NCBI GenBank assembly: GCA_027082825.1
Contig: JALWTO010000029.1
Span: 1-60,954 of the forward strand
Source: Acidilobaceae archaeon
GTDB lineage: Archaea; Thermoproteota; Thermoprotei_A; Sulfolobales; Acidilobaceae
Length of the DNA: 60,954 bases
Direction: 5' to 3'
Numbering within the stretch: the stretch's first letter is position 1; every line of letters begins with the position of its first letter. The translations under genes and the position numbers were made by a program. The notes under the pieces are model-generated. The model searched no databases. It saw only the letters and a program-made list of their open reading frames with translations, and was not told where the DNA came from. Of the stretch, positions 767 to 19,715 are shown in pieces.

Positions 767-782
767 ACTTCCCCCCTTTTAG

Positions 783-2905: not shown

Positions 2906-4762
2906 CTACTCCACAGTCACTGTTTTTGCTAGGTTCCTAGGTTTATCTGGATTATATCCTTTGGCTACTGATATATAGTATGAAAGTAGCTGAAAGAAGG
3001 GAATGAATATAAATGGTTCTAAAACATCGTTTTTATTTATTGAATTAAGGTCAATTGTCCTTATCCTCTCATTATCGGGAATATCAAGCTCCGTATCTGA
3101 GGGCTTAAGAATCCATACATTAGCCTCTCTTGCAGCCATCTCAATGGCATTACCGACAATCTCTGGTGAGTCATTTGTAGCTATAATGAAAACTGGAAAG
3201 TCTTTTTCAACAAGGGCTATTGGTCCATGTTTACTCTCTCCTGCAGGATAGGCCTCGGCATGAAGATACGAAATCTCCTTTATCTTTAGTGCTGCCTCTT
3301 TTGCAATGTAATGTCCTAGGCCTCTTCCTAATACATAGAGGCTACCTTTATAGTTGTTCATGAGTTTTGCTATGTATTTGGCTAGAGGGTCGCTTATCTC
3401 TATAGATTCTTGAATGTAACTATCAGCCCTGCTTAAGATCTCGCTAAGCCTTTTGTAATTTTCTTTGCTCAATAATCCCAAACCTCTTCCTACCTCTATT
3501 ACAAGGAGCTCTAATGCCAATACCTGCGAGGTATAGGTTTTTGTTGCAGCAACTCCTATCTCAGGTCCGGCCCTTATGTAAAGGGTCATGTCTGACTCTC
3601 TGTCAAGAGCACTTCCTACTACATTGGTTAGGGTAATGATTTTTGCACCCTTTCTCTTGAAGGTTCTAACAGCTTCTAGAGTGTCGAAGGTTTCTCCGCT
3701 CTGGCTTATAGCTAAGACAATGTCTCCATCGTTTATAGCGGATTCCAATACTTTAAACTCACTTGATATGAGAGGTATGGCCATCTTCTTTGTTAACTTT
3801 GACATAAAATATGTGAAGATAAGTCCAGCATGATAACTCGTTCCAGCCCCAACAACTATTATTCTCTTTGATGAGGTAAAAACTTCTGCAACTTTCTTAA
3901 GAGAGGGATCCTCGGCTAGGCCATTATAGGTATCAGACAATGCTTGAGGTTGTTCATATATTTCCTTTATCATAAAGTGAGGATAACCACCTTTTGATGC
4001 AAGCTCAGGGCTCCATTCTATAAGTTTTATTCTGTTTTTTAACGCTTCAGCATCAATCTTATAGAAGGATCCTTCACTTCCAAATCTATAAATGGAAACC
4101 TCATCTGGCTCTATATAACCAAATTCTCCGTCATTGAGCATTATAAATTTCCTTGTGATATCTAGGAGAGCTGGTATATCACTTGCTATTGCGGAGCCTC
4201 CGTCAAACATACCAAGTATTAGCGGGCTTTTCATTTTTGCAAAATATATCCTTTTGGGCTCATTTTTGTAAAGTATTGCTAGGGCATAGCTTCCCTCCAA
4301 TTTTTTCAACGCTTCTACCATAGACTCAAGAAGACTCTTACCATGCCTTAGACCATCCTCTATTATATGGGCTATAAGCTCTGTATCAGTTTCACTCAGT
4401 AATCTATGTTCCTTTTCCAAATAATCTCTAAGGCTGGCATAATTTCTTATTACACCATTATGAACAAGAGCTATCTCATCCCTACAATCTGTATGGGGAT
4501 GAGCGTTGCTATCGGTTGGAGGACCATGAGTGGCCCATCTTGTATGGCCTATCGCAGTTCTCCCCCTGAGCTCATCCAGACCTAATCTTTTTCTGACATT
4601 GGCTAGATCTCCTGCACCCTTCCTGACAACAAGCCTTCTATTGTCTGTTATCACAGCAATGCCAACACTATCGTAGCCTCTATATTCAAGCATTGCAAGG
4701 CCTTTCAAAACATCTTTAACTGAATCACCAGTCTTTTTTGTTAACCCTATTATGCCGCACAA
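2906..4762 (-). CDS. glmS: glutamine--fructose-6-phosphate aminotransferase (isomerizing)
   Basis: Converts fructose-6-phosphate and glutamine to glucosamine-6-phosphate in the cytoplasm, the entry step to UDP-GlcNAc. The 618-residue protein has the class II glutaminase domain first, with the catalytic Cys2 in MCGIIGL, and HTRWATHG near residue 95. Two SIS sugar-isomerase domains follow, with SQSGETFDT in the first. The C-terminal LAKTVTVE is the conserved GlmS end. The start is a TTG at 4762 with GGGAGTG about eight bases ahead. It is the first gene of a two-gene unit with the GlmU-like enzyme. GlcNAc produced here would feed the glycan locus between 24 and 35 kb (inference). Confidence 0.96.
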   Translation of the reverse strand: MCGIIGLTKKTGDSVKDVLKGLAMLEYRGYDSVGIAVITDNRRLVVRKGAGDLANVRKRLGLDELRGRTAIGHTRWATHGPPTDSNAHPHTDCRDEIALVHNGVIRNYASLRDYLEKEHRLLSETDTELIAHIIEDGLRHGKSLLESMVEALKKLEGSYALAILYKNEPKRIYFAKMKSPLILGMFDGGSAIASDIPALLDITRKFIMLNDGEFGYIEPDEVSIYRFGSEGSFYKIDAEALKNRIKLIEWSPELASKGGYPHFMIKEIYEQPQALSDTYNGLAEDPSLKKVAEVFTSSKRIIVVGAGTSYHAGLIFTYFMSKLTKKMAIPLISSEFKVLESAINDGDIVLAISQSGETFDTLEAVRTFKRKGAKIITLTNVVGSALDRESDMTLYIRAGPEIGVAATKTYTSQVLALELLVIEVGRGLGLLSKENYKRLSEILSRADSYIQESIEISDPLAKYIAKLMNNYKGSLYVLGRGLGHYIAKEAALKIKEISYLHAEAYPAGESKHGPIALVEKDFPVFIIATNDSPEIVGNAIEMAAREANVWILKPSDTELDIPDNERIRTIDLNSINKNDVLEPFIFIPFFQLLSYYISVAKGYNPDKPRNLAKTVTVE

Positions 4763-5215
4763 GGTTTCGCACTCCCTTTTTAGCTTGTATTCAGAAAGGT
4801 TATAGGAATGTTTTTCAGTTTATATTTTAGGGATGAGGAAACCACGGGACAGAGCACATTGCTATGAAGAAACCTGTCTCAACTGACATAATTTATGTAA
4901 AAATTATTTGAAGTATCTTCTGGAGGATAGAAACTTGGTTAAGGCCGTTTTGGATCTTTTATGACTATGAGATATACTAATGATGTGTATATGCTTGGCC
5001 TCATTTTCGCAAATATATCCTTTTGGGCTCATTATCTCTTTAGGATTATGCTATGGTGTCTGTTTCATAGATAATCCTGGTTCCAGTAGCTTGTTATCAG
5101 TTTTAAGTCATTAAGAACAATGAGGAAGACTATCTTCAAGTCTATATAAATAATTTATTCCATTATTCTTAGTCACGGCATTCTTTTACATACTTTGTTC
5201 TATTATAGCTGAATG
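4763..5215. other. gene-free stretch with a copied glmS fragment
   Basis: No credible gene lies in these 453 bases; the longest reading is about 42 codons. It contains the short glmS-derived copy at 5001-5033 and adjoins the captured 3' end of the membrane-protein gene at 5245-5333. The promoter of glmS must lie at its left end, but I see no strong TATA box there. The stretch looks like decayed or patched DNA rather than a regulatory region. Confidence 0.6.
5001..5033 (-). repeat. 33-nt near-copy of an internal glmS segment
   Basis: These bases match 4231-4264 inside glmS in the same orientation with one substitution and one deleted A (32 of 34 positions). The source encodes EPKRIYFAKMK of GlmS. 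The flanks show no further similarity, so it is an isolated fragment and not a decayed gene copy. Confidence 0.75.
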
Positions 5216-5767
5216 TTATTTCTTCATCATATTTTTCATGGAAAAATTCCAAGGATCCTTCTTCCCCTCCTCGCCTCTGCTGGAGATAAGTTCAGGAGCT
5301 TGATACATAAGCAGGATATCCGAGAGGTTTGAAAGGATCCTTGTCTGAATTACAGAGAGCCAGAAACCTAATGTGACTACAGTTAGTATGCTATCCTTTG
5401 CTCTCACTCTTCTATCGGCAACAATTCTTAATGATAATAATGCTCCTAGAACTACAGGGTAAAGAGCTATAGATATAGCTGAGACAAGAACATCCTTCAG
5501 GCCAACACTTCCTCCCTCTTTTATGAGGTTCCAAGAAAGTCTTGCCAACAGAAGGATCCTTAGTTCAATGAGAGCGCCTATTAGATATAGTGCAATAAAT
5601 ATAGAAGCCAGTACTCTTCCTTCAAAAGGTGTGAGTCTATATTTTAAAACAATGAATATAAGCCATGCCGTAACTGAGGCCGACATTAATAGAGGGGGTA
5701 GCCATGAATGCGAATTCTTTACAACCTCTCCAGTTTTCCACATTCTCTCTGTAACACTCATGTCCAT
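5216..5767 (-). CDS. small integral membrane protein with a captured C-terminus
   Basis: No family recognised. Four hydrophobic helices are visible at about residues 23-41, 50-76, 91-116 and 124-144. The ORF opens with an ATG at 5767, but GAGGT lies about seven bases before a second ATG at 5761, a better start. The gene follows the MBL nuclease by 14 bp, so they are probably co-transcribed. Residues from about 146 to 175 are read from the reverse complement of sequence found at the end of the FdhE-like gene at 21 kb, so the polar tail (QAPELISSRGEEG and on) is unlikely to be original. The natural protein probably ended near residue 145 or continued into lost sequence. A membrane location is clear; function is unknown. 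Confidence 0.6.
   Translation of the reverse strand: MDMSVTERMWKTGEVVKNSHSWLPPLLMSASVTAWLIFIVLKYRLTPFEGRVLASIFIALYLIGALIELRILLLARLSWNLIKEGGSVGLKDVLVSAISIALYPVVLGALLSLRIVADRRVRAKDSILTVVTLGFWLSVIQTRILSNLSDILLMYQAPELISSRGEEGKKDPWNFSMKNMMKK
5245..5333 (+). repeat. 89-bp copy of the 3' end of the FdhE-like gene, in opposite coding sense
   Basis: The plus strand here matches the sense strand of 21005-21093 (minus strand there) at 87 of 89 positions, including the TGA stop of the FdhE-like gene. Here it lies inside, and antisense to, the 3' end of the membrane-protein gene. Similarity stops sharply on both sides. Confidence 0.9.
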
Positions 5768-5781
5768 TACCTCACGGTTTC

Positions 5782-6756
5782 CTAAGGCTCTACAACAGCC
5801 TCTATGCCAAGTCTTCTCTGTATATACTTGGCTGTAAGATATGCATCTCTACCTCTATAACCATCTACAATTACTTTTTTGGGTCTTGCCTCCATTATAT
5901 ATTCTATAACTTCCTTAAATGTTGCATGATCACTGAAAGAAACGTTAAATACGTTTTCTGAAAGCTGGACCACAACATCTCTAAACTCCCTGCCAGTAAG
6001 CTTTATATGAGTTCCAGATCTCTTTCTAAAAGTCTTAAACAAAGAAGACCTAGTGAAAACTATTGCGGGCTCATCTTTGACGAACTCAGAGAGAGGCAAG
6101 AGATTTCCAACATTGATCCCATAAAATTTTGATGCAACCTTCATTAGCTTTATCGTAAGTGAGTCAGCAACAAAAGTGTCTTTGATCCCTCTCGCTCTCA
6201 ATTCGACCATAATTTCTTGAAGTTTCCCATTAAAACCATAGATCCATACAGGTCCCCTGCTCTTTCTATCCTCAATTATCCTTACAAGGCTATTGACTGC
6301 TTCCCAATCGGTCCACTTTCTATCTCTAAGAGGGCTGCCATACGTTGCATCTATAACAAGTACATCAAGGTTTTTCATAGGAGTTGTTCCAGGCATCTTG
6401 AAGTCCCCAGTATAACCGACTCTAAATTCTTTTCCTTCAATAAGAACCTGAGCACTACCAGCTATGTGTCTTGCCTTAAGGAGGGTTAAGGTTTCTTTGT
6501 CAACAGTTACAGACTTTTTGTATTTCAATGGAAGCCTTTTCTCCTTAGGGATTTTATATCCTAGGATCTCAAGCATGTCTAAGGTAGTTGGAGTAGCTAT
6601 TATGTACAAACTTCTCTTTAAATTATAACTGAGTCCAGTAAGATGGTCTTGATGTATATGTGTGACCACTCTTATTAGTCTTTCTGCAGGTCCATCAACA
6701 ACAACGTTATAACCTAAGAGTATTCCTCCTTTGGAATTTATTTTAGCCTCAATCAT
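5782..6756 (-). CDS. metallo-beta-lactamase-fold nuclease-like protein
   Basis: A two-metal hydrolase of the archaeal MBL-fold exonuclease type related to RNA/DNA processing enzymes. Residues 33-38 give the zinc motif H-x-H-x-D-H (THIHQDHL). Further ligands lie in the ARHIAGSAQ segment, in TGDFKMPGT, and in FSDHATF near residue 275. These match the beta-CASP/SNM1-like layout, although at 324 residues it lacks a large insert. The start at 6756 has GAGGT about nine bases upstream. It heads a unit with the small membrane-protein gene. Whether it acts on RNA or DNA cannot be told from sequence. No signal peptide, so cytoplasmic. Confidence 0.78.
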   Translation of the reverse strand: MIEAKINSKGGILLGYNVVVDGPAERLIRVVTHIHQDHLTGLSYNLKRSLYIIATPTTLDMLEILGYKIPKEKRLPLKYKKSVTVDKETLTLLKARHIAGSAQVLIEGKEFRVGYTGDFKMPGTTPMKNLDVLVIDATYGSPLRDRKWTDWEAVNSLVRIIEDRKSRGPVWIYGFNGKLQEIMVELRARGIKDTFVADSLTIKLMKVASKFYGINVGNLLPLSEFVKDEPAIVFTRSSLFKTFRKRSGTHIKLTGREFRDVVVQLSENVFNVSFSDHATFKEVIEYIMEARPKKVIVDGYRGRDAYLTAKYIQRRLGIEAVVEP

Positions 6757-6849
6757 CTTGTTGATTACCTCTCATAACATTCTTTCGGTCTTTTCTTTTC
6801 AGACTCCAGACATTCAAAAAGAAACTTAGCACATTTACAGCTTTTTCCT

Positions 6850-7548
6850 TCATGTCCTCCAATAAAAGTTCTTGCTATATCTGTACCTAAAAGCTATAAA
6901 AGAGAATATTGCAGCAAGCAAAATTCCTAGAGTAGAATAAAGCATTATCTTTTTTAAGTTTCTTGAAACAAGAGGAGAACCACATACGAGTCCACTTGCC
7001 GAGGATAGCATTGCCTTCCCCCCTATATTGCCGCTAAAGATCATGTATGCAGGCAGATAACTTCCTTTAGGCATAAGAATACTTATGTTCTCTCCATCTA
7101 GATGATATTCACTTTTAAAATAGGCTATGCACTTCATCATAGAGCTGGTGCTTTCTGAATAATAAGGAATTACCAGCTTATTGGACAAAGGAGATCCTTT
7201 CTCTGAACTGAATTCTATTGCTTCCCTTAGTATATAAAGAAACTGCTCCAGTTGAGGTTTTATTATGTCATAAAGTCCTGAAATAGACGGAGATATGTAA
7301 TTTACATTTAGCCTAAGCCTAAGTTTACTACCTTCACCATAATATACTATTAAAGTAGCATAGGCTTCCCATTTTACTGTTCCAGCACCATAAATTTTAG
7401 ATGTTCCACTTAGTGAAACGGTATATGTAACTTCTGTTGAACCCTGAGCATAGGCAAACCTAGTGCCTCCACTGGCCAATAACAGAATTAGAAGGAACAA
7501 GATAAAGAGCCTTTTTTTATTCTCTTTTATGCTAAAGGTTATTACCAA
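6850..7548 (-). CDS. secreted or membrane-anchored protein of unknown function
   Basis: No family recognised. Residues 12-35 form a signal sequence with positive residues before it and an AYAQ junction that looks like a cleavage site. The next 160 residues are beta-rich and polar, with a sequon (NIS). A single transmembrane helix near residues 200-220 is followed by a basic tail, so the folded part should lie outside the cell with a C-terminal anchor. The start is a TTG at 7548, 17 bp after the stop of the pyrophosphatase gene, with AGGT eight bases ahead, so the two genes are probably one transcript. The link to pyrophosphatase may be incidental. Confidence 0.62.
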   Translation of the reverse strand: MVITFSIKENKKRLFILFLLILLLASGGTRFAYAQGSTEVTYTVSLSGTSKIYGAGTVKWEAYATLIVYYGEGSKLRLRLNVNYISPSISGLYDIIKPQLEQFLYILREAIEFSSEKGSPLSNKLVIPYYSESTSSMMKCIAYFKSEYHLDGENISILMPKGSYLPAYMIFSGNIGGKAMLSSASGLVCGSPLVSRNLKKIMLYSTLGILLAAIFSFIAFRYRYSKNFYWRT

Positions 7549-7565
7549 TTTGCACTTTACCTGCC

Positions 7566-8099
7566 TTACTCCTTTGCTCTATACCTCTCTATGGCATTAA
7601 TTATTCTCTTTTTTGCTTCCTCGGCTCCTTTCCATCCAGTAACTTTCACCCACTTTTCAGGTTCTAACTCCTTGTAATGTTCAAAGAAGTGTCTTATCTT
7701 ATTCTTAAGATCATCTGGTATAGAGTTCACGTCATTCCAGTTCTTATAGTAAGGATCAAGCTTTGGCTTAGGAACTGCAATAATCTTTGAGTCAGGTCCA
7801 TTCTCATCTTCCATTTCGAGAAGCCCTATAGGAACGACCTCTATAAGTGAGCCTGGAACAACTGATTCACGGCTTATCACCATAACGTCAACTGGATCTC
7901 CGTCCTCTTCCAGAGTTCCTGGTACAAATCCATAGTTGAATGGATATACCATGCTTGTATAGAGAAATCTATCAACCTCTATTATACAGGCCTTTTTGTT
8001 GAACTCATATTTAACCGAGCTGCCCATTGGTATCTCAATTATTGCATTTATGACATTGGGCGCATCTTTTCCAGGACCAACCTTTTCTAAACAAGCCAT
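7566..8099 (-). CDS. ppa: inorganic pyrophosphatase, family I
   Basis: Hydrolyses pyrophosphate to two phosphates in the cytoplasm and pulls forward nucleotide-dependent biosyntheses. The 177-residue length is typical. The signature [12 protein letters not shown] carries the metal-binding aspartates, preceded by the conserved [11 protein letters not shown] segment, and [14 protein letters not shown]-type elements follow near the C-terminus. The ATG at 8099 has GGTGAT ahead. It is transcribed away from rpl7ae across a 93-bp divergent region. Confidence 0.96.
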
Positions 8100-8131
8100 A
8101 TTATCACCAAAAGAAACTGATGTCAGCTAGG

Positions 8132-8139
8132 TTTATAAA
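8132..8139 (+). promoter_or_regulatory. TATA box for rpl7ae
   Basis: TTTATAAA in the ppa/rpl7ae divergent gap. A start site about 26 bases downstream (near 8163) would leave a 30-base leader carrying the GGGGAGGAGGATGA ribosome-binding region before the ATG at 8193. Confidence 0.65.
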
Positions 8140-8192
8140 GCATGGGTTATCTCTTACAACCTGCGACGACCCTATGGGGAGGAGGATGAAAC

Positions 8193-8576
8193 ATGTCTAA
8201 GCCATTTTATGTGAGGTTTGAGGTTCCTGAAGATCTTGCGGATAAAGCGTATGAGGCAGTAAGAAAGGCCAGAGAAACTGGAAAAGTAAAGAAGGGAACA
8301 AATGAGACAACTAAAGCATGTGAAAGGGGACAGGCTAAATTAGTAGTAATAGCTGAAGATGTAGATCCTCCAGAGATAGTTGCTCATCTACCTCTGCTAT
8401 GTGATGAAAAGAAAATACCCTATGTCTATGTTCCAAGCAAGAAAAAGCTTGGAGAGGCTGCAGGGATAGAAGTACAGGCTGCTAGTGCTGCAATCTTAGA
8501 TCCCGGTGAGGCCTCAAGTTTGATAAACGAAATTGCAGAAAAAGTTAAGGAGTTAAGAGCAAAAGCAGGCATCTAA
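8193..8576 (+). CDS. rpl7ae: large-subunit ribosomal protein L7Ae
   Basis: Kink-turn-binding protein that is part of the 50S subunit and, in archaea, of box C/D and H/ACA particles and RNase P. The 127-residue protein shows the L7Ae core, including [20 protein letters not shown] and the [11 protein letters not shown] loop that touches RNA, then [19 protein letters not shown] strong purine-rich ribosome-binding sequence precedes the ATG. It stands alone on a transcript, with a T-rich end before rps13. Confidence 0.97.
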
Positions 8577-8597
8577 AGATCTTTTTATTTTTCTTAA
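8577..8597 (+). terminator. T-rich terminator after rpl7ae
   Basis: Directly after the stop codon lies a T-rich run (CTTTTTATTTTTCTT) of the type that ends archaeal transcripts. It separates rpl7ae from the rps13 operon. Confidence 0.5.
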
Positions 8598-8662
8598 AAG
8601 CTAAAAAGGAAAGCCTTCTTAAGGGCCCTCAGTTTCATAACCCAAAGGGGTGGAGCTAGAGC

Positions 8663-9118
8663 TTGTCAGAGGAAACTTCATTTAAGTACATAGTGAGAAT
8701 CGCCGGTACGGACATAGATGGAAAGCTGAAACTGCCTTTTGGTTTGGCCAAAATCAAAGGCATCGGTATAATTACAGCTTTTGCTATACTAAGATTTTTG
8801 GGGATAAACGAAAATAAACTTGTTGGTTATCTAACTGAGGACGAAATAAAGAAACTTGAGGATGCTGTTACGGACATAAGAAAGCTTGGTTTACCTTCAT
8901 GGCTATATAACAGAAGAAGAGACTATGAAAGTGGAGAGGATCTCCACTATATTGGTGCCGATCTAATATTTGCTGCAAGAAGAGACATAGAGAGGGAAAT
9001 AAAAATGGGAAGCTGGAGAGGTGTTAGACATAAACTAGGTCTGAAGGTTAGGGGGCAGAGAACTAGGACTACTGGAAGACTTGGAATGACCGTAGGTGTT
9101 AGAAAGAAACAGAGGTGA
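8663..9118 (+). CDS. rps13: small-subunit ribosomal protein S13
   Basis: Binds the head of the 30S subunit and contacts tRNA. The 151-residue protein has the family helix-two-turn-helix region (FGLAKIKGIGIITAFAI) and the basic C-terminal VRGQRTRTTGRLG segment. The start is a TTG at 8663 with GGGGTGGAGC about eight bases ahead. It opens the S13-S4-S11-RpoD-L18e-L13-S9-RpoN-S2 cluster, an arrangement typical of archaea. Confidence 0.97.
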   Translation: MSEETSFKYIVRIAGTDIDGKLKLPFGLAKIKGIGIITAFAILRFLGINENKLVGYLTEDEIKKLEDAVTDIRKLGLPSWLYNRRRDYESGEDLHYIGADLIFAARRDIEREIKMGSWRGVRHKLGLKVRGQRTRTTGRLGMTVGVRKKQR

Positions 9119-9124
9119 TAGTTA

Positions 9125-9643
9125 ATGGGAGACCCAATGAAGTCTAGAAAGAAGTGGGAAGGACCAAAACACCCTTGGGGGAAAGAAAGGCTTCTTAGAG
9201 AAATAGAACTTGTAGGACGCTATGGACTTAAGAACAAAAAAGAGCTATGGATTGCCTCCTCGCTTGCTAGGAAACTCAGACACCAAGCCAGAAGTCTTCT
9301 AGGGTTACTACCAGAGGTTAGAGCAGAAAGAGAACAAACTCTATTGAAAAGGCTTTATAGACTAGGTCTTGTTGGTGAAAATGCAAGTTTGGATGATGTG
9401 TTAGGCCTCACAGCTGAGCATATACTTGAAAGAAGGCTTCAGACAATAGTTTACAAGAAAGGTCTTGCCAGGACAATCCATCAGGCTAGGCAGCTCATAG
9501 TTCATGGACACATAGCAATAGGGGGTAGAAGAATAACATCACCAGGCCATCTTGTAGCAAGAGAAGAAGAGAATTTAATAGAGTATGCTCCCGGAAGTCC
9601 GTTTAAGGAGAAAGCAGAGAAAGAAACTTCAGAAACAGGGTGA
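9125..9643 (+). CDS. rps4: small-subunit ribosomal protein S4
   Basis: Primary 16S rRNA-binding protein that nucleates 30S assembly. The 172-residue protein starts with [18 protein letters not shown], the archaeal/eukaryotic S4 (S9e) N-terminus. An S4 RNA-binding domain is visible at about residues 105-155 ([20 protein letters not shown] then [11 protein letters not shown]). The ATG at 9125 lies 6 bp after rps13 with GAGGTGATAG ahead. An ATG at 9137 is an alternative start. Confidence 0.97.
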
Positions 9644-9649
9644 TGATTA

Positions 9650-10051
9650 TTGGCAATGTTCCAGAGAGAGCTGAAGTGGGGAGTTGTTCACATATATAGT
9701 AGTTTTAATAACACTATAGTCCATATAACTGATCTTACTGGTGCTGAGACCGTCGCTAGAATTACAGGAGGTATGGTTGTTAGGGCAGACAGAGAAAAGC
9801 CTAGTCCCTATGCTGCCATGATGGCAGCAAGCAGAGCAGCTCAGAGAGCCATGGAAAGAGGTGTAGTCGCTGTTCACATAAAGGTTAGAGCACCTGGAGG
9901 TCATGGACCAAAAACACCAGGTCCTGGGGCACAGGCAGCTATCAGGGCCATAGCTAGGGCTGGATTTATCATTGGAAGGATAGAGGACGTAACTCCGATA
10001 CCACATGATACTACCAGAAGGCCTGGTGGCAGAAGAGGAAGAAGAGTCTGA
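9650..10051 (+). CDS. rps11: small-subunit ribosomal protein S11
   Basis: Component of the 30S platform near the mRNA exit. The 133 residues match the family from [20 protein letters not shown] to [16 protein letters not shown] and the basic tail [11 protein letters not shown]. The start is a TTG at 9650 with GGTGATG ahead; the ATG at 9656 is possible but less well spaced. It lies 6 bp after rps4. Confidence 0.97.
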
Positions 10052-10070
10052 TGTTCTGAGGGATGAATTA

Positions 10071-10910
10071 ATGGCAAAAAAGATTTCTATAATAAAACTT
10101 GATGATAGGAACATAAAAATGGTTGTTGATGGATTTCCAGTGGCATTTGTGAATTCTGTTAGAAGAGCTGTTCTATCAGATGTCCCAACATTGGCTATTG
10201 ATTTTGCATTTTTCTATGATAACACATCAAGTGTTTATGACGAAATAATTGCGCATAGACTAGGACTTACAGTTCTCAAAAGTGATGATGCCATAAAGAA
10301 GTACAAAAGTCCCGAAGAGTGTTCAGACGCCGATGAGACTGATACTTCCTGTTATGTTGAGATAATAATAAGGAAGGAGATCAGCGAGGATTCAGAGAAA
10401 GGAGAGTATGTCAAGGCATCTGATATGGAAATTCCAGATCCTAATGTAAGTCCAGCATATCCAGAAACTCCAATAGTTTACTTGGCTCCGGGCCAGAGAG
10501 TACATATCGTTGCTTATGCAAGGCTTGGAAGAGGAAGAGAACATGGAAAGTGGAGTCCAGCATCAGTCTCTGTCCTCAGAAATGTTCCTGTACTTTCAAT
10601 AGTGAATAAGGGTAAGATAGATGAGAATTGTGTTAAGTGTCTTGAGGCATATCCTGAGGTTCTGAAGTCTGTCAGAAGAAGTAGAAGTAAGTCAATCGAG
10701 CTTTCTAATCTAGAAAAGACAGGTGGTCTAAGATATTGTATTGAAAATGTTTGTAAGGATGCTCTGAGGTTAGAGTATTCAGAAAACAAGTTTATATTAG
10801 AGGTTGAAGGCACTGGAGCCCTTAGGCCAGAGAGTATAGTTTATGAGGCGTTGAAGGCACTAGAGCTCAGGGCTAAGGTACTAAAAGAGGTGGGGGTGTC
10901 AAGAAAGTGA
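10071..10910 (+). CDS. rpoD: DNA-directed RNA polymerase subunit D (RpoD/Rpo3)
   Basis: The alpha-like subunit that pairs with subunit L to start RNA polymerase assembly. I place the start at the ATG at 10071 (MAKKISIIKL), with GAGGGATGA ahead, because a longer reading from 10005 overlaps rps11. The dimerisation motif (VAFVNSVRRAVLSDVPTLAI) is near residue 25. A third domain holds four cysteines at about 187, 190, 223 and 228 (CVKC and CIENVC), the layout of RpoD proteins that bind a [4Fe-4S] cluster. The length of 279 residues fits the cluster-bearing form. The gene overlaps rpl18e by 4 bp. Confidence 0.96.
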   Translation: MAKKISIIKLDDRNIKMVVDGFPVAFVNSVRRAVLSDVPTLAIDFAFFYDNTSSVYDEIIAHRLGLTVLKSDDAIKKYKSPEECSDADETDTSCYVEIIIRKEISEDSEKGEYVKASDMEIPDPNVSPAYPETPIVYLAPGQRVHIVAYARLGRGREHGKWSPASVSVLRNVPVLSIVNKGKIDENCVKCLEAYPEVLKSVRRSRSKSIELSNLEKTGGLRYCIENVCKDALRLEYSENKFILEVEGTGALRPESIVYEALKALELRAKVLKEVGVSRK

Positions 10911-11269
10911 AAAGGACAGGACCAACTAACTATCTTGTCATTAGGTTAGCAAGGGAGCTAAAAAAAGCTGGTAACCAAAACAATGCCAAGATCTGGCATA
11001 AGGTATCTAAGCTCATATTAGAGCCTAGAAGAAAGAGAATCGAAGTCAATTTAAGTAAAATAAATAGATATTCAGAGGAAGGAGACACAATACTAGTTCC
11101 GGGTAAGGTGTTGGCAGCTGGGAACTTGAGCAAGCCTGTAGTTGTAGCAGCTCTTTCATTCTCAAAGATGGCAATACTTAAGATAAAGGCCGCTGGAGGT
11201 GAAGCAATTACTCTGGAGCAACTCTTGAAGAAGAATCCTAAGGGTAGCAAGGTGAAAATAATAGCTTGA
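10907..11269 (+). CDS. rpl18e: large-subunit ribosomal protein L18e
   Basis: Archaeal/eukaryotic large-subunit protein of the L15/L18e fold. The 120 residues include KRTGPTNYLVIRLARELKKA at the start and TILVPGKVLAAGNLSKPV in the middle. The start is a GTG at 10907, overlapping the rpoD stop, so translation is coupled. AGGTGGGGGTG ahead provides the ribosome-binding site. Confidence 0.96.
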   Translation: MKRTGPTNYLVIRLARELKKAGNQNNAKIWHKVSKLILEPRRKRIEVNLSKINRYSEEGDTILVPGKVLAAGNLSKPVVVAALSFSKMAILKIKAAGGEAITLEQLLKKNPKGSKVKIIA

Positions 11270-11280
11270 GGTGAAGCAAT

Positions 11281-11742
11281 GTGACAGAAGACAATAAAGG
11301 TAAACTTATAATTATAGATGGTTCTGGTCATATACTTGGTAGGCTTGCCAGTTTTATTGCCAAGAAGCTGCTTGATGGTAACAAAGTTGTTGTTCTTAAT
11401 GTTGAGAAAGTCGTTGTAAGTGGCGATCCCACAAAGGTTGTTCAGTTCTATAAAAGAACTGTCCTAGGAGTTAAATCTCATTATAGTCATAGATTAAGAC
11501 CAAAAAGACCTAGGAGTCCTATAAGACTCTTTAAGGTGACCGTATGGGGGATGTTGCCTAAAAATAACAAAAAAGGAAGAGAGGCACTAAAAAGACTTAG
11601 GGTGTATGTAGGAGCTCCGAAAGAATTTATCAACTCAGAAGCAATAAAAGTTCCAGAGGCATCTGCCTCTAGACTTGGTAGGTCATCTGTTACATTGGAG
11701 AGAATAGCCAAGGAGCTTGGCTGGAGAGGTGTTGTAACTTGA
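11281..11742 (+). CDS. rpl13: large-subunit ribosomal protein L13
   Basis: Early-assembling 50S protein. The 153 residues carry the family features: IIDGSGHILGRLASFIAKKL at the N-terminus and the YKRTVLGVKSHYSHRLRPKR segment, then WGMLPKNNKKGREALKRLRVY. A GTG start follows GAGGTGA by six bases. Its stop overlaps the rps9 start by 4 bp. Confidence 0.97.
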   Translation: MTEDNKGKLIIIDGSGHILGRLASFIAKKLLDGNKVVVLNVEKVVVSGDPTKVVQFYKRTVLGVKSHYSHRLRPKRPRSPIRLFKVTVWGMLPKNNKKGREALKRLRVYVGAPKEFINSEAIKVPEASASRLGRSSVTLERIAKELGWRGVVT

Positions 11743-12194
11743 GTCTTTCAGGTAGAATAGTAATAGCAACTGGTAAGAGAAAAACCGCTATAGCTAGGGC
11801 TTTAATAAAGCCTGGAAAGGGCAGGGTCAGAGTAAATAATATACCTATAGAGCTTTACCCTATAGAGATGGTCAGAATAAAAATGATGGAACCTATCCTT
11901 CTTGCTGGCGAGAAAGTAAGAAACTTAATTGATATAAGTGTTAATGTCCACGGAGGAGGTATAATGTCTCAAGCAGATGCTACAAGGATGGCTATAGCAA
12001 GAGGGTTAATAGCATTCTTTAACTGCGGCAGCGAAAGTGGGGATTGTAAGAAAATGAAATCTATAGCTGAAAAACTGGAGAATGTGTTCATTGAATATGA
12101 CAAGACTATGTTAACAGGAGACCCTAGAAGAACAGAACCAGAGAAGTACATGAGATATAGTGCAAGAAGAAGATGGCAGAAGTCATATAGGTGA
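11739..12194 (+). CDS. rps9: small-subunit ribosomal protein S9
   Basis: 30S head protein whose C-terminal tail reaches the P-site tRNA. The 151-residue protein has ATGKRKTAIARALIKPGKGR at the start and ends in RYSARRRWQKSYR, the conserved basic tail. The TTG start overlaps the rpl13 stop, so the two are translationally coupled. Confidence 0.97.
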   Translation: MSLSGRIVIATGKRKTAIARALIKPGKGRVRVNNIPIELYPIEMVRIKMMEPILLAGEKVRNLIDISVNVHGGGIMSQADATRMAIARGLIAFFNCGSESGDCKKMKSIAEKLENVFIEYDKTMLTGDPRRTEPEKYMRYSARRRWQKSYR

Positions 12195-12201
12195 TCAGAA
12201 A

Positions 12202-12438
12202 ATGTTGCCACCTGTCAGATGCTTTACTTGCGGTGCGCCCCTAGGTCATTTGTGGGAGGAGTTCCAGAGAAGAGTGAAAGATGGCGAAGATCCAACAAAG
12301 GTCCTTGATGATCTTGGTGTAAAAAGGTATTGTTGCAGAAGGACATTGCTCACAACAATAACATATATGGAAGAGATAAGTATGTACCACGCATTAAGAG
12401 TCAGAAGGTTTAGGGCTATGGGAGGTGCAAGGACATGA
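12202..12438 (+). CDS. rpoN: DNA-directed RNA polymerase subunit N (Rpo10)
   Basis: Small zinc-binding RNA polymerase subunit that joins the D/L assembly platform. I start at the ATG at 12202, with AGGTGAT ahead, giving 78 residues; a longer reading from 12160 overlaps rps9. The zinc ligands are visible: CFTCG near the N-terminus and the adjacent CC pair in [19 protein letters not shown] is also conserved. It overlaps rps2 by 4 bp. Confidence 0.96.
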
Positions 12439-13058
12439 GCCAGATCTCTAAAGGAGAGCTTTTGGTCCCCTTAGAAGTCTATAGAAAAGCTGGCGTTATG
12501 TTTGGCACACAGATATGCACAAAATACATGAGAAAGTTCACATATAAAATTCTCCCTGAGGGATACTATCTACTTGATATAAACAAGACTGATGAAAGAT
12601 TGAGAGTAGCCTCGAGGTTCCTGGCTTCATTTGATCCAGAGAAGATAGCTGTAACTGCTGTGAGACTTTATGCACAAAAGCCAGCAGCCATGATGTGCAA
12701 ATATATAGGATGCAAAACCATTACTGGAAGAATAATTCCTGGTATCTTTACAAATCCTCATTTAGAACACTATATAGAACCTGATGTCATTCTAGTTAGT
12801 GATCCTAGAACCGACAAGCAGGCTCTCATAGAAGCCTCAAAGATAGGTGTTCCTGTAGTTGCACTTGCTGATACTGACAATAAGATAGAATATATAGACC
12901 TTGTAATACCAGCTAATAACAAAGGTAGAAGAAGTCTTGCATTACTCTTCTGGATCCTGACAAGAGAGGTATTAAGAAATAGGGGTATTTTAGGTCCAGC
13001 CGAGGATCTAGATGTAAGTTATGAAACTTTCATGTCTGGAAGAGTTAGAAGAAGGTAG
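12435..13058 (+). CDS. rps2: small-subunit ribosomal protein S2
   Basis: 30S protein at the body/head junction. The 207 residues match archaeal S2, with [10 protein letters not shown]-like ([20 protein letters not shown]), [10 protein letters not shown] and [19 protein letters not shown]. In many archaea rpoK and enolase lie between rpoN and this gene; here rpoN runs directly into it with a 4-bp overlap. It ends the cluster and converges with the AOR gene 15 bp away. Confidence 0.96.
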
Positions 13059-13073
13059 AGACAAAAAAATTAT

Positions 13074-14936
13074 TTATATTATATGGAGAAACTCATCAAG
13101 GTTAAGTCTCTTTAACGTCTCCTCGGTTGGTATACCGTTCTTCCATCCTCTGATCTCATAGTATTTCGGAAGATAAGTTTCAAGAGCCTCCTTAGCCCTT
13201 TTACCCTTGGCAGGACCATCGGATAAGGGTTCTTCAAGAAGTCTCTTTGGTAAATAGTCTTTATATCCATGGCCTTCTCTTACAGCGAAGAGCCTTTCTA
13301 GGTTATATATCCTCTCTCCTACCTTGAGCAATTCCTCCTTAGTTATATTGTCCCAGCCAGTAACAGACTTTACAATACCGACATAGTCATCTATATCGGT
13401 AGCAAATGTATTAAACTTACAGACAACTAAAGAGTCTATAACAGAGAAGTAATCCTGCTGATATTTTACTAAATCAACCTTTTCCATGTCTATTGCCAAA
13501 GGATCCGTCTTTTTAGGAACTCCCAAAACATCAAAGCTTACAGCATAAGATCTCAGGTGACAGCCTCCTCTGTTAGCCGTAGCATAGGCTAATGCCATGC
13601 TATTAATTGCTCTAGGATCGTAAGCTGGTAGCTCTAAACCTCTTATGTGTATTGCTGAGTCTGGTGAACCAAATTCCTCGGCAAGTTTGGCTGCACCTTC
13701 AGTTGCAATATCTCCTATACCATGCCTATACGCCATTCTCCAAACCAGTTGCATCATAGCATCCATATTACCCCATGTAGGCTCTATATCTTCAAGAAGG
13801 TTAAGGAGCCTCATTGCTTTATCCTTAGGCAACTCACCTTTCTTAGCCTTCTCATAAAGCTCCATAAGGGTTGACATTACGTTTCCAAGGCTTATTGTGT
13901 CAAAGCCTAGATCGTTAGCCAGATAATTCAGTTTTATTATAGACTCTAAGTTTCCGTTAAAGAGATTAGAGCCAAAGGCCCATATGGTCTCATACTCTGG
14001 TCCCTCGGACCTTGGTGTCATATAAGGGCCAGTATGAACTGCCGAAACTCTAGCACATTGAATAGAACAACCCCAACAACCCTTATTTGTCAGCAGATAT
14101 TTTTCAGCAAGATATTCTCCGCTTATCTCAAACGCTTTCTCATAAGTTCCCATAGTCCAGTTCTTGGTGGGAAGGCCTCCAACAGAGTTAACAATGTTAA
14201 CTAGAACAGCAGTTCCAAATTTACCTAAAGATTCACTTATTGGATGTTCAACTATTTTCTTTGTTAGTTTCTTGGATTCATCTAAGAATCCCTTCATATT
14301 AGATATAGGGACCTTTCTTTTACCTTTTACAAATATGGCCTTCAACTTTTTATAGCCTAAAACTGAGGCAAGACCTGTCCTTGCTGCTGCCCTGTATTTG
14401 TCATTAATTATTGCTGCTATCTTTGATAGATTTTCTCCAGCAGGACCTATGCTTAATATGCTACCTATAAACTCATTTAGAGTATTCATCTCCTCTCTAA
14501 TGTACTTCTCTGTATGAACAGCTCCTTTGCCCCAGAGCTTCTTTGCAGGATAGAATTGGACTTCCCCATCAATGATACTTATCCATACTGGCTCATCACT
14601 ATTATCCTCTATAACCAAACCGTCATAGCCTGAAAATCTGAGCCAGGGGCCAAACTGCCCTCCTGAATTTGACTCACCCAAAATTCCTGTCAATGGACTT
14701 TTTCCTATGACATGGTATCTTCCAGTCTGAAAGGCTCCCGTACCAGTTAGAGGCCCTGTCAGTATGAATATTTTATTGTCCCTGCTCAAGGGGTTTATTT
14801 TTGGAGGTATTTCCTTGAGTGCTAAGTAAGCGCCTAAACCCCTTCCTCCCAGATACTTTCTTAAGATATTGTCCTTTATGGTCTCTTCTCTAGCCTTCCA
14901 TGAAGAGAGGTTTATCCTAAGGAGCTTGAATTCCAA
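13074..14936 (-). CDS. aor: aldehyde ferredoxin oxidoreductase (tungsten family)
   Basis: Oxidises aldehydes to carboxylic acids and reduces ferredoxin; tungsten-bispyranopterin enzyme of the cytoplasm. The 620-residue protein is full length. The N-terminal domain holds KYLGGRGLGAYL and GPLTGTGAFQTGRY. Cluster ligands are visible as C287-x2-C290-x3-C294 (CWGCSIQC) and a distal cysteine near 506 (VVCKFNTF). EGPEYETIWAFG and AYDPRAINSMALAYAT are family signatures. The start is a TTG at 14936 with AGGTGG ahead. It is the third gene of a unit with an alcohol dehydrogenase and an SCP2 protein. The aldehyde substrate is unknown. Confidence 0.95.
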   Translation of the reverse strand: MEFKLLRINLSSWKAREETIKDNILRKYLGGRGLGAYLALKEIPPKINPLSRDNKIFILTGPLTGTGAFQTGRYHVIGKSPLTGILGESNSGGQFGPWLRFSGYDGLVIEDNSDEPVWISIIDGEVQFYPAKKLWGKGAVHTEKYIREEMNTLNEFIGSILSIGPAGENLSKIAAIINDKYRAAARTGLASVLGYKKLKAIFVKGKRKVPISNMKGFLDESKKLTKKIVEHPISESLGKFGTAVLVNIVNSVGGLPTKNWTMGTYEKAFEISGEYLAEKYLLTNKGCWGCSIQCARVSAVHTGPYMTPRSEGPEYETIWAFGSNLFNGNLESIIKLNYLANDLGFDTISLGNVMSTLMELYEKAKKGELPKDKAMRLLNLLEDIEPTWGNMDAMMQLVWRMAYRHGIGDIATEGAAKLAEEFGSPDSAIHIRGLELPAYDPRAINSMALAYATANRGGCHLRSYAVSFDVLGVPKKTDPLAIDMEKVDLVKYQQDYFSVIDSLVVCKFNTFATDIDDYVGIVKSVTGWDNITKEELLKVGERIYNLERLFAVREGHGYKDYLPKRLLEEPLSDGPAKGKRAKEALETYLPKYYEIRGWKNGIPTEETLKRLNLDEFLHII

Positions 14937-15011
14937 GGATTTACCACCTGTATCAATTAATTATATCTCTATACTGAGTAATAAGATTTAGCATCTCTTG
15001 AATTAGAATAA

Positions 15012-15431
15012 TTACTTTAGTCCAACTCTCTGAGCAGCTCTCACCATCTCAAGTGCTGCAACTGGATATCTCATTATTGAACTTACACTCCCTTTTTCTA
15101 GTGCTAGCTTTCTCCTGACGATTGCTGAAACAGGGTTTATCTTTCCTTGAATTACATTAAGCCAGTCATCAAATGTTGCGGTTAATACAAATGGGGCGTC
15201 TGCCTTTGATGAGTCATCAAACCACTTAACTCCTCTACAAGTTCCGTTGTTGAGATCGACTAAGAAGCCTGGAGAACCACTAGAAAACTGTGATTTGAGC
15301 TCCTTAGGAAGATCCTTAACCTTGAAAAGTATTGGCCAGATCCATCCTCTTGCAGAATTCCTATATGTCTCTGATTTATTCAACTCCTCACAGAATTTCT
15401 CAGCCCACTCCTTACTTGGAAACTTAGGCAT
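15012..15431 (-). CDS. SCP2 sterol-carrier-domain protein
   Basis: A single SCP2 domain of about 139 residues: KEWAEKFCEELNKSETY at the start and FVLTATFDDWLNVIQGKINP in the core, then SIMRYPVAALEMVRAAQRVG. Such domains have a hydrophobic pocket that binds lipid-like ligands. The longer reading from 15455 is possible, but GGAGGT precedes the ATG at 15431, so I start there. The gene lies between the alcohol dehydrogenase and aldehyde oxidoreductase genes in one unit, which suggests a role with a hydrophobic aldehyde or acyl substrate (inference). No signal peptide. Confidence 0.8.
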   Translation of the reverse strand: MPKFPSKEWAEKFCEELNKSETYRNSARGWIWPILFKVKDLPKELKSQFSSGSPGFLVDLNNGTCRGVKWFDDSSKADAPFVLTATFDDWLNVIQGKINPVSAIVRRKLALEKGSVSSIMRYPVAALEMVRAAQRVGLK

Positions 15432-15504
15432 AACATCCGCACACCTCCAAAACATTATTTGTTTTAAAAATATTTAGTACTTTTGTGGGACTCAATAAAT
15501 AATT

Positions 15505-16674
15505 TCAATAAATAGACTCTAATAAAGACTCCAGCTCTTCAGGCGTTGGAATTCTCGGATTAAAAGCCAAAGTAGGATCATGCAGAGCCTCTTCTGCAAC
15601 AAATTTCTTTACCTTGTCAAATTTGTTTTTCTCAATTTCCATACCTCTAAGCCTTTGTGGGAAGTCTATTTTGGAATAGAATAACCTTATATGCTCACTA
15701 AGCTTTTCCTTCTTCTCCAACTTTAGGGTTAGCTCGAGGAAATCCTTAATATAATCATATTTTTCTTTGGCCCTAGAATCATTGTAGTTGAAATCTATGA
15801 CATATGGAAGAAGTAGGCCGACGGCTGTTCCATGATGTAACCCGAGCATAGCTCCAAGAGGATGGCCTAATGCATGGGCTAGTCCTAGTCCTGAGTTTGA
15901 AAAAGCCATTCCAGCCATTGTCGCAGCTATATGGAGGTTGGCTCTAGCCTCTAGGTTGCTAGGATCCTTTAGGACAATAGGAAGATACCTGAGCACTCCT
16001 TCAACAACCTTCAGTGAAAGAGCGTCTGTAAAGGGATTAGAGTTCGTTGAAACAAAGGATTCAATTGCATGAGTCATGGCATCAAGAGCTGTGCCAATAG
16101 TAAGAGTTTTAGGCATGCCAGCAGGTATTTTTGGATCCAGAATCACTATATATGGTACCAGCTCTGAATTAGCAACATCTATCTTGATCTTTCTCTTATT
16201 TTCATCTTTTGTAAGAACCATTGCATAACTTGCATCACTTCCAGTGCCACTAGTTGTTGGAATGGCTATGATTATAGGTCTTCTAAACTCCATTCCTATA
16301 GGGTTGAAAGGTGCAATATCCTCAACATCCAAATCCGGTCTTAAAGATTTCACTACTCCTGCTTTAGCAGAATCTATAACACTTCCTCCTCCAACTGCTA
16401 TAACTACATCAGCTCCTACTTGTTTTATAACTTTAGCTACCTTGTCTCCTATATCTATTGGAGGTTCAGGCTCTACATCATCGAAAACTTGATAACTTGT
16501 TGAGCTTACAGCATCTGTTATTTTCCTAAAGAAATCCATTCCCCTTATTACCTTGTCTGTTACAATAACCATTTTCTTTATGTTCAAGATATTTATCAGC
16601 TGTTGGAGTACAGATTCCACTGGTTCGTCATAAAAGATTCTTCTAGGAATAGAGATTTCTGTCAAGACAAGCAC
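15505..16674 (-). CDS. iron-containing alcohol dehydrogenase
   Basis: NAD(P)-dependent oxidoreductase of the Fe-ADH family, interconverting alcohols and aldehydes or ketones. The 389-residue protein has the nucleotide-binding VIAVGGGSVIDSAKA near residue 93 and TTSGTGSDAS near 140. Metal ligands lie in TALDAMTHAIE, in LGLAHALGHPLGA and in GLHHGTA. The reading starts with a GTG at 16674; GAGGTG overlaps that codon and sits six bases before a TTG at 16665, which is the likelier start. A TATA box lies just upstream. It is first in the unit with SCP2 and AOR, so alcohol-aldehyde-acid interconversion is plausible. Confidence 0.9.
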   Translation of the reverse strand: MLVLTEISIPRRIFYDEPVESVLQQLINILNIKKMVIVTDKVIRGMDFFRKITDAVSSTSYQVFDDVEPEPPIDIGDKVAKVIKQVGADVVIAVGGGSVIDSAKAGVVKSLRPDLDVEDIAPFNPIGMEFRRPIIIAIPTTSGTGSDASYAMVLTKDENKRKIKIDVANSELVPYIVILDPKIPAGMPKTLTIGTALDAMTHAIESFVSTNSNPFTDALSLKVVEGVLRYLPIVLKDPSNLEARANLHIAATMAGMAFSNSGLGLAHALGHPLGAMLGLHHGTAVGLLLPYVIDFNYNDSRAKEKYDYIKDFLELTLKLEKKEKLSEHIRLFYSKIDFPQRLRGMEIEKNKFDKVKKFVAEEALHDPTLAFNPRIPTPEELESLLESIY

Positions 16675-16700
16675 CTCAGAAAGATTATATGAAATTTCGC

Positions 16701-16709
16701 ATATATAAA
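16701..16709 (-). promoter_or_regulatory. TATA box for the ADH-SCP2-AOR operon
   Basis: On the minus strand TTTATATAT, about 35 bases upstream of the likely TTG start at 16665. The spacing puts the transcription start near 16678, leaving a very short leader. Confidence 0.6.
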
Positions 16710-16793
16710 TGCATCATTAAGGATATAGAGTAGCAACGTTCATATCTATTTTCTTGTCTCTTAACGTCTGTTCGTTATTAAAATTCTATAGAA

Positions 16794-17684
16794 TCAAACC
16801 AGTGCATTTATTATAAGTCCAATCAGTAGAAGAAGACCAAAGTTTTGAAGAAACTTCGCCGTCCTTGGATCAGCATCTGGAGGAGATTCTTTCTCAAACA
16901 TCTTATAGAGAGAGCGTGCCTGAGGAAGCACTGCGAACGTTACCAAAGACTCAAAGGGGAGGATCCTTAGAGGTATGTAAATAGTGACAAGAATGTATGA
17001 TGAAATTATAAGGAGTTTATAAATGATCACGGCCCTGTTTCTTCCTAGACGTACAGCAAGGGTATAAGCTCCGTTTTTTCTGTCAACGTCTATATCTCTT
17101 ATGTTATTGGCCAAGAGAACTGCTGAGACTAATATTCCTAAAGGTATCGAAGCTATAACAGGCTTCCAACTTAATGTTCCGCTAGCAACATAATAAGCAC
17201 CTAAGGTCATTAAAGGCCCCCATGTAAAAAATGTTCCCAGTTCTCCCAAACCTTTGTATTTGTACTTAACTGGAGGGCCAGTGTAGAAAAATGCAAGAAG
17301 GGCACCAAGAGCACCTAATAATATTGCCCAAGGTCTTCCAGTAACTCCTATATAGACTCCCAGAGCTAGTCCTATGAGAGCTGATATGTTAGCCAAGTTC
17401 ATTACCTGAGATTGGGTCATGAATCCTGAGACTAATGGATGTGGTCTGTAAATGGCTGTTCCGGCATCAGGACTATCAAATCCATATTTATAGTCATAAT
17501 AGTCGTTCCAAACATTTACAGCAGCATGTAGAAAAATGACTCCGACTATGGCCATGATTGAAAGTAACCAAGAGACCTTCAAACCATTAAACATAGCCAA
17601 CAAAATTCCATAGGACATTATTATGGTTGTCATTAAAAAGCTCCATGGTCTTGTAGCAATAAAGATCTCCTTCATACTAGGCAT
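16794..17684 (-). CDS. UbiA-family prenyltransferase (MenA-like)
   Basis: Integral membrane enzyme that joins a polyprenyl diphosphate to an acceptor ring or alcohol. The first aspartate motif N60-D61-x2-D64 lies in NVWNDYYDYKYG, and the second in NNIRDIDVDRKNG near residues 193-204, followed by YTLAVRLGRNRA as in MenA. Eight or nine hydrophobic helices are visible in 296 residues. MenA-type proteins make demethylmenaquinone, which would suit the respiratory complex encoded later, but other archaeal UbiA enzymes work on membrane lipids. The ATG at 17684 has GGGGTG ahead. Confidence 0.83.
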   Translation of the reverse strand: MPSMKEIFIATRPWSFLMTTIIMSYGILLAMFNGLKVSWLLSIMAIVGVIFLHAAVNVWNDYYDYKYGFDSPDAGTAIYRPHPLVSGFMTQSQVMNLANISALIGLALGVYIGVTGRPWAILLGALGALLAFFYTGPPVKYKYKGLGELGTFFTWGPLMTLGAYYVASGTLSWKPVIASIPLGILVSAVLLANNIRDIDVDRKNGAYTLAVRLGRNRAVIIYKLLIISSYILVTIYIPLRILPFESLVTFAVLPQARSLYKMFEKESPPDADPRTAKFLQNFGLLLLIGLIINALV

Positions 17685-17743
17685 AATACACCCCTGATAG
17701 GTGGTGTAAATTTAAGGGTTTAAATAGGCTTTGCTTAATTTTA

Positions 17744-18553
17744 TTAAGAAAATGAAGTCTTTAATCTTCTTTCAACAATAGAAGAATATCTCTCCAAGGA
17801 CTCCAAGCCTGTCTTGCTTATCTTTGTATTAAGATCAATCCTAAGAGGAGTGATTGAAACACACCCTTCTACATAAACAGCATAAACATCCGAGCCCTTT
17901 TCAGGATTTATTGGAAGTGGATGAAGCCAGTAATAAGGCCTCCCTCTTGTGTCTAACCTCATCTCAAAGGCAGGTCTCCACCTTCTTCTAGCTGCCCTAG
18001 TTATCCTGACGCATGGTTTTAATGTATCTGATGACGGAAAGTTCACTGATATAAAATCCACATTCTCTGGCATACCACCTTCAATAATCAGCTTTGCCAG
18101 TGTGCCAGCAACTGTCTTGACAGCTCTCGCAATCTTATTGCTCTTGAATTCCTCCCAAAGTCTTACATCGGCTGAGAATGCTAGTGCAGGGATATCCATT
18201 AAGGCTGCTTCCATTGCAACAGCTATTGTACCACTATATACTATATGCTGAATTGTTAAGTTTTCACCAACGTTGACTCCTGAAACAACTAAGTCTGGCT
18301 GGAATCCATGGGCTGCAATTGCCAGATGGAGCCCATCAACAGGAGATCCATCAATAACATTTACCTCATATTCTTCAAAGCTTATTTTGTCTAGTCTAAG
18401 AGGTTTGTTAAATGAGACACTATGGCCTACAGCACTTCTAGGCCATAATGTCGAATAAATTCTTACTTCTCCAAGACTTTTTACGGATTCGTAGAGAAGA
18501 TAAAGACCTTTGGAAAGATAGCTATCATCATTAGTTACCAGTATTTTTGCCAA
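17744..18553 (-). CDS. surE: 5'-nucleotidase SurE
   Basis: Metal-dependent phosphatase acting on nucleoside monophosphates. The 269 residues start with ILVTNDDS carrying the metal-binding aspartate pair. The usual glycine after TNDD is a serine here. The family core follows: VDGSPVDGLHLA, DLVVSGVNVGENL and YSGTIAVAMEAAL. The start is a TTG at 18553 with GGGTGGG ahead. It is divergent from the UPF0200 gene; TATA-like sequences for both directions lie in the 142-bp gap. Confidence 0.93.
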   Translation of the reverse strand: MAKILVTNDDSYLSKGLYLLYESVKSLGEVRIYSTLWPRSAVGHSVSFNKPLRLDKISFEEYEVNVIDGSPVDGLHLAIAAHGFQPDLVVSGVNVGENLTIQHIVYSGTIAVAMEAALMDIPALAFSADVRLWEEFKSNKIARAVKTVAGTLAKLIIEGGMPENVDFISVNFPSSDTLKPCVRITRAARRRWRPAFEMRLDTRGRPYYWLHPLPINPEKGSDVYAVYVEGCVSITPLRIDLNTKISKTGLESLERYSSIVERRLKTSFS

Positions 18554-18695
18554 ATACCCACCCTATCTTTAATAGGAGAGGAGAAACTGTTATATTTATC
18601 CATATCGCTTATAATAAATCATTGCTTAATGATATTGATACTAAGGACAATACTTAATATACAGTTCTAACAAGTTGACATTTTAGGGTAGCAAG

Positions 18696-19286: not shown

Positions 19287-19689
19287 ACCTACAGAAGACC
19301 CCCAGAAGATCGAGACCGTTATAAGAACGTTCTTTAAACCTGATATTATTGATTGGGAGGAGATAGGAAACTCAAAAATCTTAATAGCCAAGTCAAGGTC
19401 ATTAAAGTCTTTAGAAAGGTTCCACAGGCTTCTGAGAATACAAAGGATTCTCGATGCGGCAAGAAATGTCTTCAAAAGGATGTCAAGAAATGGTGTTTTG
19501 ACATTTTACCTTCATAAACAGGCTCTGGCCGTCGGTAAGATAAGTTTCGTTAGTGGGGACCAAGAGTCTCCTTTAGGAGCGGTTAAAGTTACGATAAGAT
19601 ATAGCGACATCCACGAAGTTATAGACTGGTTGTCACCCCCTACACAGCGTGGAAGGCCTATCTGGGAAAAAGGGGTTCCTAAAGAATGA
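19249..19689 (+). CDS. UPF0201 family protein
   Basis: Conserved archaeal family without an assigned reaction. The 146-residue protein has VEVEVRPTEDPQKIETVIR at the start, RFHRLLRIQRILDAARNV in the middle and FYLHKQALAVGKISF, then DIHEVIDWLSPPT near the C-terminus, all family features. The ATG at 19249 has GGTGA ahead and lies inside the end of the UPF0200 frame. The overlap implies coupled translation. Confidence 0.85.
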   Translation: MEHGEVVVEVEVRPTEDPQKIETVIRTFFKPDIIDWEEIGNSKILIAKSRSLKSLERFHRLLRIQRILDAARNVFKRMSRNGVLTFYLHKQALAVGKISFVSGDQESPLGAVKVTIRYSDIHEVIDWLSPPTQRGRPIWEKGVPKE

Positions 19690-19715
19690 GGTGATATAGG
19701 TCGAGAAGAAAGGTT

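Follow-up and report, generated by a model that had tools for sequence, protein, structure and literature searches.

Inverted copies of an overlap between two convergent genes flank an apparent 15.7-kb inversion in an Acidilobaceae archaeon

Results

An inverted repeat links the 3′ ends of two distant genes

The window, by which we mean the whole stretch of 60,954 nucleotides analysed here, carries a membrane protein gene (mem) and an FdhE-like gene, and the 3′ end of each contains one arm of an inverted repeat.

5216..5767 (−): membrane protein gene mem, 183 aa; the last ~7-9 codons (5216 to ~5244) are junction sequence
5782..6756 (−): MBL, a metallo-beta-lactamase-fold gene, directly upstream of mem
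21006..21755 (−): FdhE-like double zinc-ribbon gene, 249 aa, kept at full length with its stop inside arm B
5242..5333 (−): arm A, putative copy of the ancestral overlap of mem and the FdhE-like gene, which today codes for the membrane protein only
21005..21096 (−): arm B, putative copy of the ancestral overlap, now coding only for the last FdhE-like residues and stop

The match had been described from the letters as 87 of 89 bases on opposite strands (5245-5333 and 21005-21093), with the FdhE-like stop codon included. It is real and slightly longer: positions 5242-5333 and 21005-21096 form an inverted repeat with 89 of 92 bases identical (E 3.8e-37 in a search within the window), the three mismatches lie at 5326/21012, 5254/21084 and 5244/21094, and the longest exact run common to the arms is 71 bp. 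The FdhE-like stop codon (21006-21008) does lie within the repeat, with one base between it and the repeat end. No further inverted repeat of at least 30 bp was found in the window, and a search of the organism's own metagenome-assembled genome (1.30 Mb in 56 contigs, 84% complete, 3.3% contaminated) gave no additional copy at E ≤ 1. The many-copy mobile repeat that the sequence-only reading had set against its own interpretation thus did not turn up, the genome holding only two copies.

The mem product, which owes the name of membrane protein to the sequence-only reading, has no Pfam match and no NCBIfam match above cut-off. The product of the other gene scores 15.6 bits against the curated FdhE model TIGR01562 (cut-off 187.65) and 15.6 against Pfam FdhE_central (cut-off 27), falling below both, and its best match among solved structures is no better than E 0.065. 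By its sequence, it is a double zinc-ribbon protein with weak resemblance to FdhE.

The repeat corresponds to a tail-to-tail overlap in relatives

Only one genome of the same genus, G001, was returned among the relatives searched. On its contig C185 (JALWOJ010000185.1), mem and the FdhE-like gene are adjacent and convergent, with a 48-bp overlap that lies over this same segment, and the 92-bp sequence occurs in that one place with no second copy in the genome. In an alignment of both arms with G001, the G001 sequence is continuous through the flanks of both copies: the high-coordinate side of arm A runs on into mem homology, while that of arm B runs on into FdhE-like homology. A comparison with relatives had been suggested to find those that lack the fragment; the close relative instead has it once, as the overlap of the two neighbours. 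In fact, the mem gene of G001 already has sequence homologous to most of the ~30 C-terminal residues that had been taken as new, and only the last ~7-9 residues are new in the window.

The same arrangement extends beyond the genus. We could detect mem in 11 of the 59 other genomes searched, all from the same family; outside the genus its matches are weak (E 1e-7 to 0.007), and position and neighbour agree with them. The two genes are convergent in nine of the 11 (G001, G004, G006, G009, G010, G012, G020, G024 and G032; the mem ORF of G020 was identified by position and a separate homology match, not by blastp). Seven of these nine pairs overlap by 48-153 bp and two abut; in all nine the antisense codons are aligned in the same phase (phase 0) and MBL adjoins mem upstream, as in the window. 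Because the genes are convergent in nine of the 11 relatives with a detectable mem, always in the same antisense phase, the overlap is ancestral. The fragment is not antisense sequence turned into a new tail, as had been proposed, since it is read on both strands in relatives too. In the remaining two relatives (G005 and G025, of one genus; loci L094 and L093), mem and the FdhE-like gene lie in tandem on one strand, which implies one or more further rearrangements of the pair within the family.

In the window, the mem frame in copy B reads on to a stop at ~21114-21116, which suggests that the overlap in this lineage was ~111 bp before the event. From this frame, the earlier mem product would have ended ...GEEGKKDSWNSYNQVWI, while the present one, encoded through copy A, ends ...GEEGKKDPWNFSMKNMMKK. 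It appears that mem swapped about 7 terminal residues for about 9 that come from spacer sequence and not from the repeat. The FdhE-like reading frame is intact, with its whole length and stop retained.

The second copy is young relative to the split within the genus, because only 3 of 92 bases differ between the arms, whereas identity is ~71-80% with G001 and ~73% with contig C17 from the bin of this genome; the earlier view of a recent event on the ground of low divergence agrees with this. Comparison with G001 gives a direction to two of the three differences: each is a change in copy A, which no longer serves the FdhE-like frame. At the third, the FdhE-like frame encodes the same residue in either version. 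With three sites, the numbers are too small to test.

Gene order on both sides points to a single inversion

The gene order around the arms was compared with C17 and with the G001 contigs.

5242..21096 (no strand): segment inverted in comparison with G001 and C17, with ~15.7 kb from arm to arm
2906..4762 (−): glmS-like gene (SIS and glutamine amidotransferase domains), next to MFS on its downstream side in C17
19716..20864 (+): MFS transporter gene, upstream neighbour of glmS in C17, now facing the FdhE-like gene

C17 aligns with the window from 15881 to 20809 and then from 4886 down to 8, so that it runs from MFS into glmS. The G001 contig C185 aligns with the window from 8500 down to 5242 and then from 21032 to 21283, and a further G001 contig, C41, spans the whole of window 8497-15543 and by synteny lies next to C185. 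Flipping the window segment between the arms restores MFS to glmS and the convergent mem/FdhE-like pair together, and the arms sit exactly at the two junctions. The C17 and G001 contigs each cross one breakpoint, the two ancestral junctions being observed on two assemblies (MFS to glmS on C17, mem/FdhE-like on C185), and both are consistent with a single inversion of ~5.2-21.1 kb. We attribute both junctions to one event because a single inversion explains both; the 15.7-kb inversion, as reconstructed from these alignments, would be the reason why mem and the FdhE-like gene now lie 16 kb apart. Neither arm has a blastn match anywhere in C17, its MFS-glmS spacer included. By these comparisons, the piece would be present once in the ancestral order, at only one of the two breakpoints, and as inverted copies at both derived breakpoints.

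The MFS-glmS adjacency is seen in C17 alone; the two genes are not adjacent in more distant relatives, and G001 has no match to MFS, to glmS or to the first 11 kb of C17. C17 (loci L035 and L036) probably belongs to another species of the genus that was binned with this genome, because the window left end and contig C39, which together match it along its length, do so mostly at only 65-78% identity. It may be a missing part of G001's species, since its first 11 kb have no match in G001. In composition, the C17 blocks have a GC content of 40.6 and 41.9% (39.2 and 40.7% in the window) and the G001 blocks 42.8 and 40.6% (40.4 and 38.8%), and all tetranucleotide correlations in this comparison are 0.85-0.93.

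The junction spacers contain short copies of other sequences

Between the arms and the outer genes, each junction contains a spacer with one short copied piece.

4887..5241 (no strand): junction A spacer, 355 bp, with no homologue in C17; it holds the glmS patch
5001..5033 (+): glmS patch in the junction A spacer, a copy of glmS coding sequence 4231-4264 in the same orientation
20865..21004 (no strand): junction B spacer, 140 bp, between the MFS stop and arm B
20898..20947 (+): 50-bp patch in the junction B spacer, a 92% copy of positions 30-79 of contig C52 of the same genome (contig end)

The MFS-glmS gap in C17 is ~150 bp, and its ~100 bp on the glmS side match the window up to 4886. The search for other short copies that the sequence-only reading had recommended was fruitful, since the 34-bp glmS copy (94% identity over 34 aligned columns) and the 50-bp C52 copy both lie at the junctions. 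The three short copies, namely the 92-bp arm and the glmS and C52 patches, are similar in identity (92-97%), which would be in keeping with one period of origin. The 50-bp piece could be an older two-copy element. It carries ATGATGA, a box-C-like motif, and from its sequence may be a small-RNA relative rather than junction filler; every match to RNA families at the junctions was below the gathering score.

The other spacer parts (4887-5000, 5034-5241, 20865-20897 and 20948-21004) gave only chance-level short matches in the organism's own genome. Against the 59 other genomes, the additional matches of the junction A spacer were glmS and one 20-bp stretch only, and part of the junction B spacer, searched against 35 other genomes, added only 18-19-bp matches.

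Several sources for the spacers were considered and set aside. A decayed mem remnant in junction B had been proposed from a protein-to-DNA match with seven stops, and was rejected: the spacer scored 33 against mem DNA (shuffle mean 33.3; 108 of 200 shuffles reached or exceeded this score) and 38 against the mem of G001 (49 of 200), and the match rests on the arm itself. A decayed FdhE-like remnant in junction A scored 53 with 20 of 200 shuffles at least as good, which is not significant, and 29 against G001 (95 of 200). For a larger glmS tandem duplication around the 34-bp patch, none of 200 shuffles was as good over the whole alignment; we do not claim the extension because the 34-bp core accounts for most of the score. 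The MFS tail and the C17 spacer did no better than shuffles as sources.

Other features of the window

A candidate box C/D sRNA lies upstream of glmS at 4829-4888 (+), in a stretch ~83% conserved in C17; it scores 14.7 bits against Rfam sR42, below the threshold of 38, and the C/D boxes were read by eye. In window 1-1448, at the contig end, two adjacent ORFs (1-766 and 783-1448) contain blocks that are repeated in tandem and nearly identical (199 bp at 100%, 145 bp at 94% and 93 bp at 99%); the ORFs are perhaps, as a guess, duplicated pilin- or flagellin-like genes. In the ORF at 21805-23481 (+), matches above cut-off show an amino acid permease domain (PF13520) ahead of a nucleotidyltransferase domain (PF01909), a fusion that looks uncommon. 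We interpret the multi-copy ~80-bp matches as tRNA genes; the copy in the window, the one that was scanned, is tRNA-Gly.

Discussion

We favour a one-step inversion at a staggered break, with fill-in and padded joins, as the probable origin of this structure. In the ancestor, mem and the FdhE-like gene would have been convergent, with 3′ ends overlapping by ~111 bp in codon-aligned antisense. Breaks would have occurred in the MFS-glmS spacer and, with staggered ends, within the mem/FdhE-like overlap, and the intervening 15.7-kb piece would have been rejoined in the opposite orientation. After fill-in of the stagger, each side would carry the overlap as a 92-bp copy, and padding of the joins would have brought in spacer that includes the short copies, 34 bp of glmS and 50 bp matching the C52 contig end. 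The FdhE-like gene would emerge whole, mem would lose its last ~7 residues and gain ~9 from the spacer, and each copy of the overlap would be freed of one of its two reading frames. The repeat, the overlap in relatives, the inverted order, both junctions and the patches can be read in the assemblies themselves; the one-step order of events and the filler mechanism are what we infer from them. A templated insertion during break repair had been suggested earlier, and its break-related origin of the second copy is retained here, while the recruitment of antisense sequence as a new tail is not.

The same end product is predicted by insertion followed by recombination between the repeats. In that case, a break in the MFS-glmS spacer would have been repaired by copying in a patchwork of 92 bp of the overlap, 34 bp of glmS and 50 bp of C52, and the inverted 92-bp copies would later have recombined and flipped the segment. 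Inverted repeats can recombine, the flip would restore the native mem tail exactly, and flipping the window back at the arms leaves a ~590-bp patchwork in the MFS-glmS spacer with three short copies alike in identity. This course of events needs two steps, its insert must happen to start one base past the FdhE-like stop, and a search of the 59 other genomes gave no relative that has the insert in the uninverted order; we regard it as possible but doubtful. It is unlikely that arms derived from template-switching patches in the MFS-glmS spacer are still recombining, with the 15.7-kb segment flipping in the living population; if they were, mem would alternate between two C-terminal tails.

An assembly artefact, either a join across the 92-bp repeat or a chimera of two species that would make the inversion unreal, is suggested by the fragmented, incomplete and partly contaminated metagenome assembly, which seems to include one or more contigs (C17 being one) of another species. 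However, had there been no rearrangement or insertion, the overlap should exist only once; both junctions also agree with one reciprocal inversion, and the arms differ at three sites. Their longest exact run, at 71 bp, is shorter than the larger k-mers and the read lengths in common use, and we hold an artefact to be quite improbable. There is very little room for an antisense FdhE-like fragment that was inserted into mem and made a new ~30-residue tail: the repeat and its orientation are as that account described them, but G001 has the same mem tail region in the same FdhE-like overlap, and convergent mem/FdhE-like pairs occur across the family. It is similarly hard to credit that the 92 bp are a mobile repeat, for which the existence of two copies is the sole support, while these two are the genome's only ones (E ≤ 1), both code at gene 3′ ends, and G001 has the sequence in a single place.

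Rearrangement junctions are known to hold templated insertions, that is, short copies of nearby or distant sequence. The 34 bp of glmS and 50 bp of C52 resemble these; the present case differs in that the 50-bp piece could be an older two-copy element and no source was found for most of the spacer.

The one-step inversion that we prefer also has relatives among known rearrangements. DNA duplication associated with inversion was reportedly described by Furuta in 2011 in Helicobacter pylori. A further report places it in Thermus tengchongensis (PMC8963470), and this and two other papers describe a segment that is single at one ancestral breakpoint and inverted at both derived breakpoints (PMC8963470, PMC4671568, PMC6933940). 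The window is alike in its single ancestral segment and its inverted copies at both breakpoints; it differs in that the organism is an archaeon, that what was duplicated is the 3′ overlap common to two convergent genes, and that both genes are kept, with none made or destroyed. For the two strains of PMC3119063, the paper reports that no inversion separates them. In Drosophila, staggered-break (isochromatid) inversions duplicate a fragment that is single in the non-inverted chromosome, according to PMC6861252; the duplicated fragment lies at both breakpoints of the inverted chromosome, as here, whereas that system is eukaryotic and its inversions are attributed there to non-homologous end joining. 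In the open-licence literature, covered partly by titles and the beginnings of abstracts, we found no description of an inversion that duplicates a convergent overlap. The rearrangement is of a known kind, and it is a good example in which two overlapping genes had their common coding end duplicated.

These observations call for caution in that short opposite-sense copies of gene ends may be inversion scars rather than newly created tails. Moreover, opposite-strand genes that share coding bases can separate without loss when a rearrangement duplicates the shared part. With each copy released from one frame, the pair is a natural test of the constraint that antisense overlap places on a protein.
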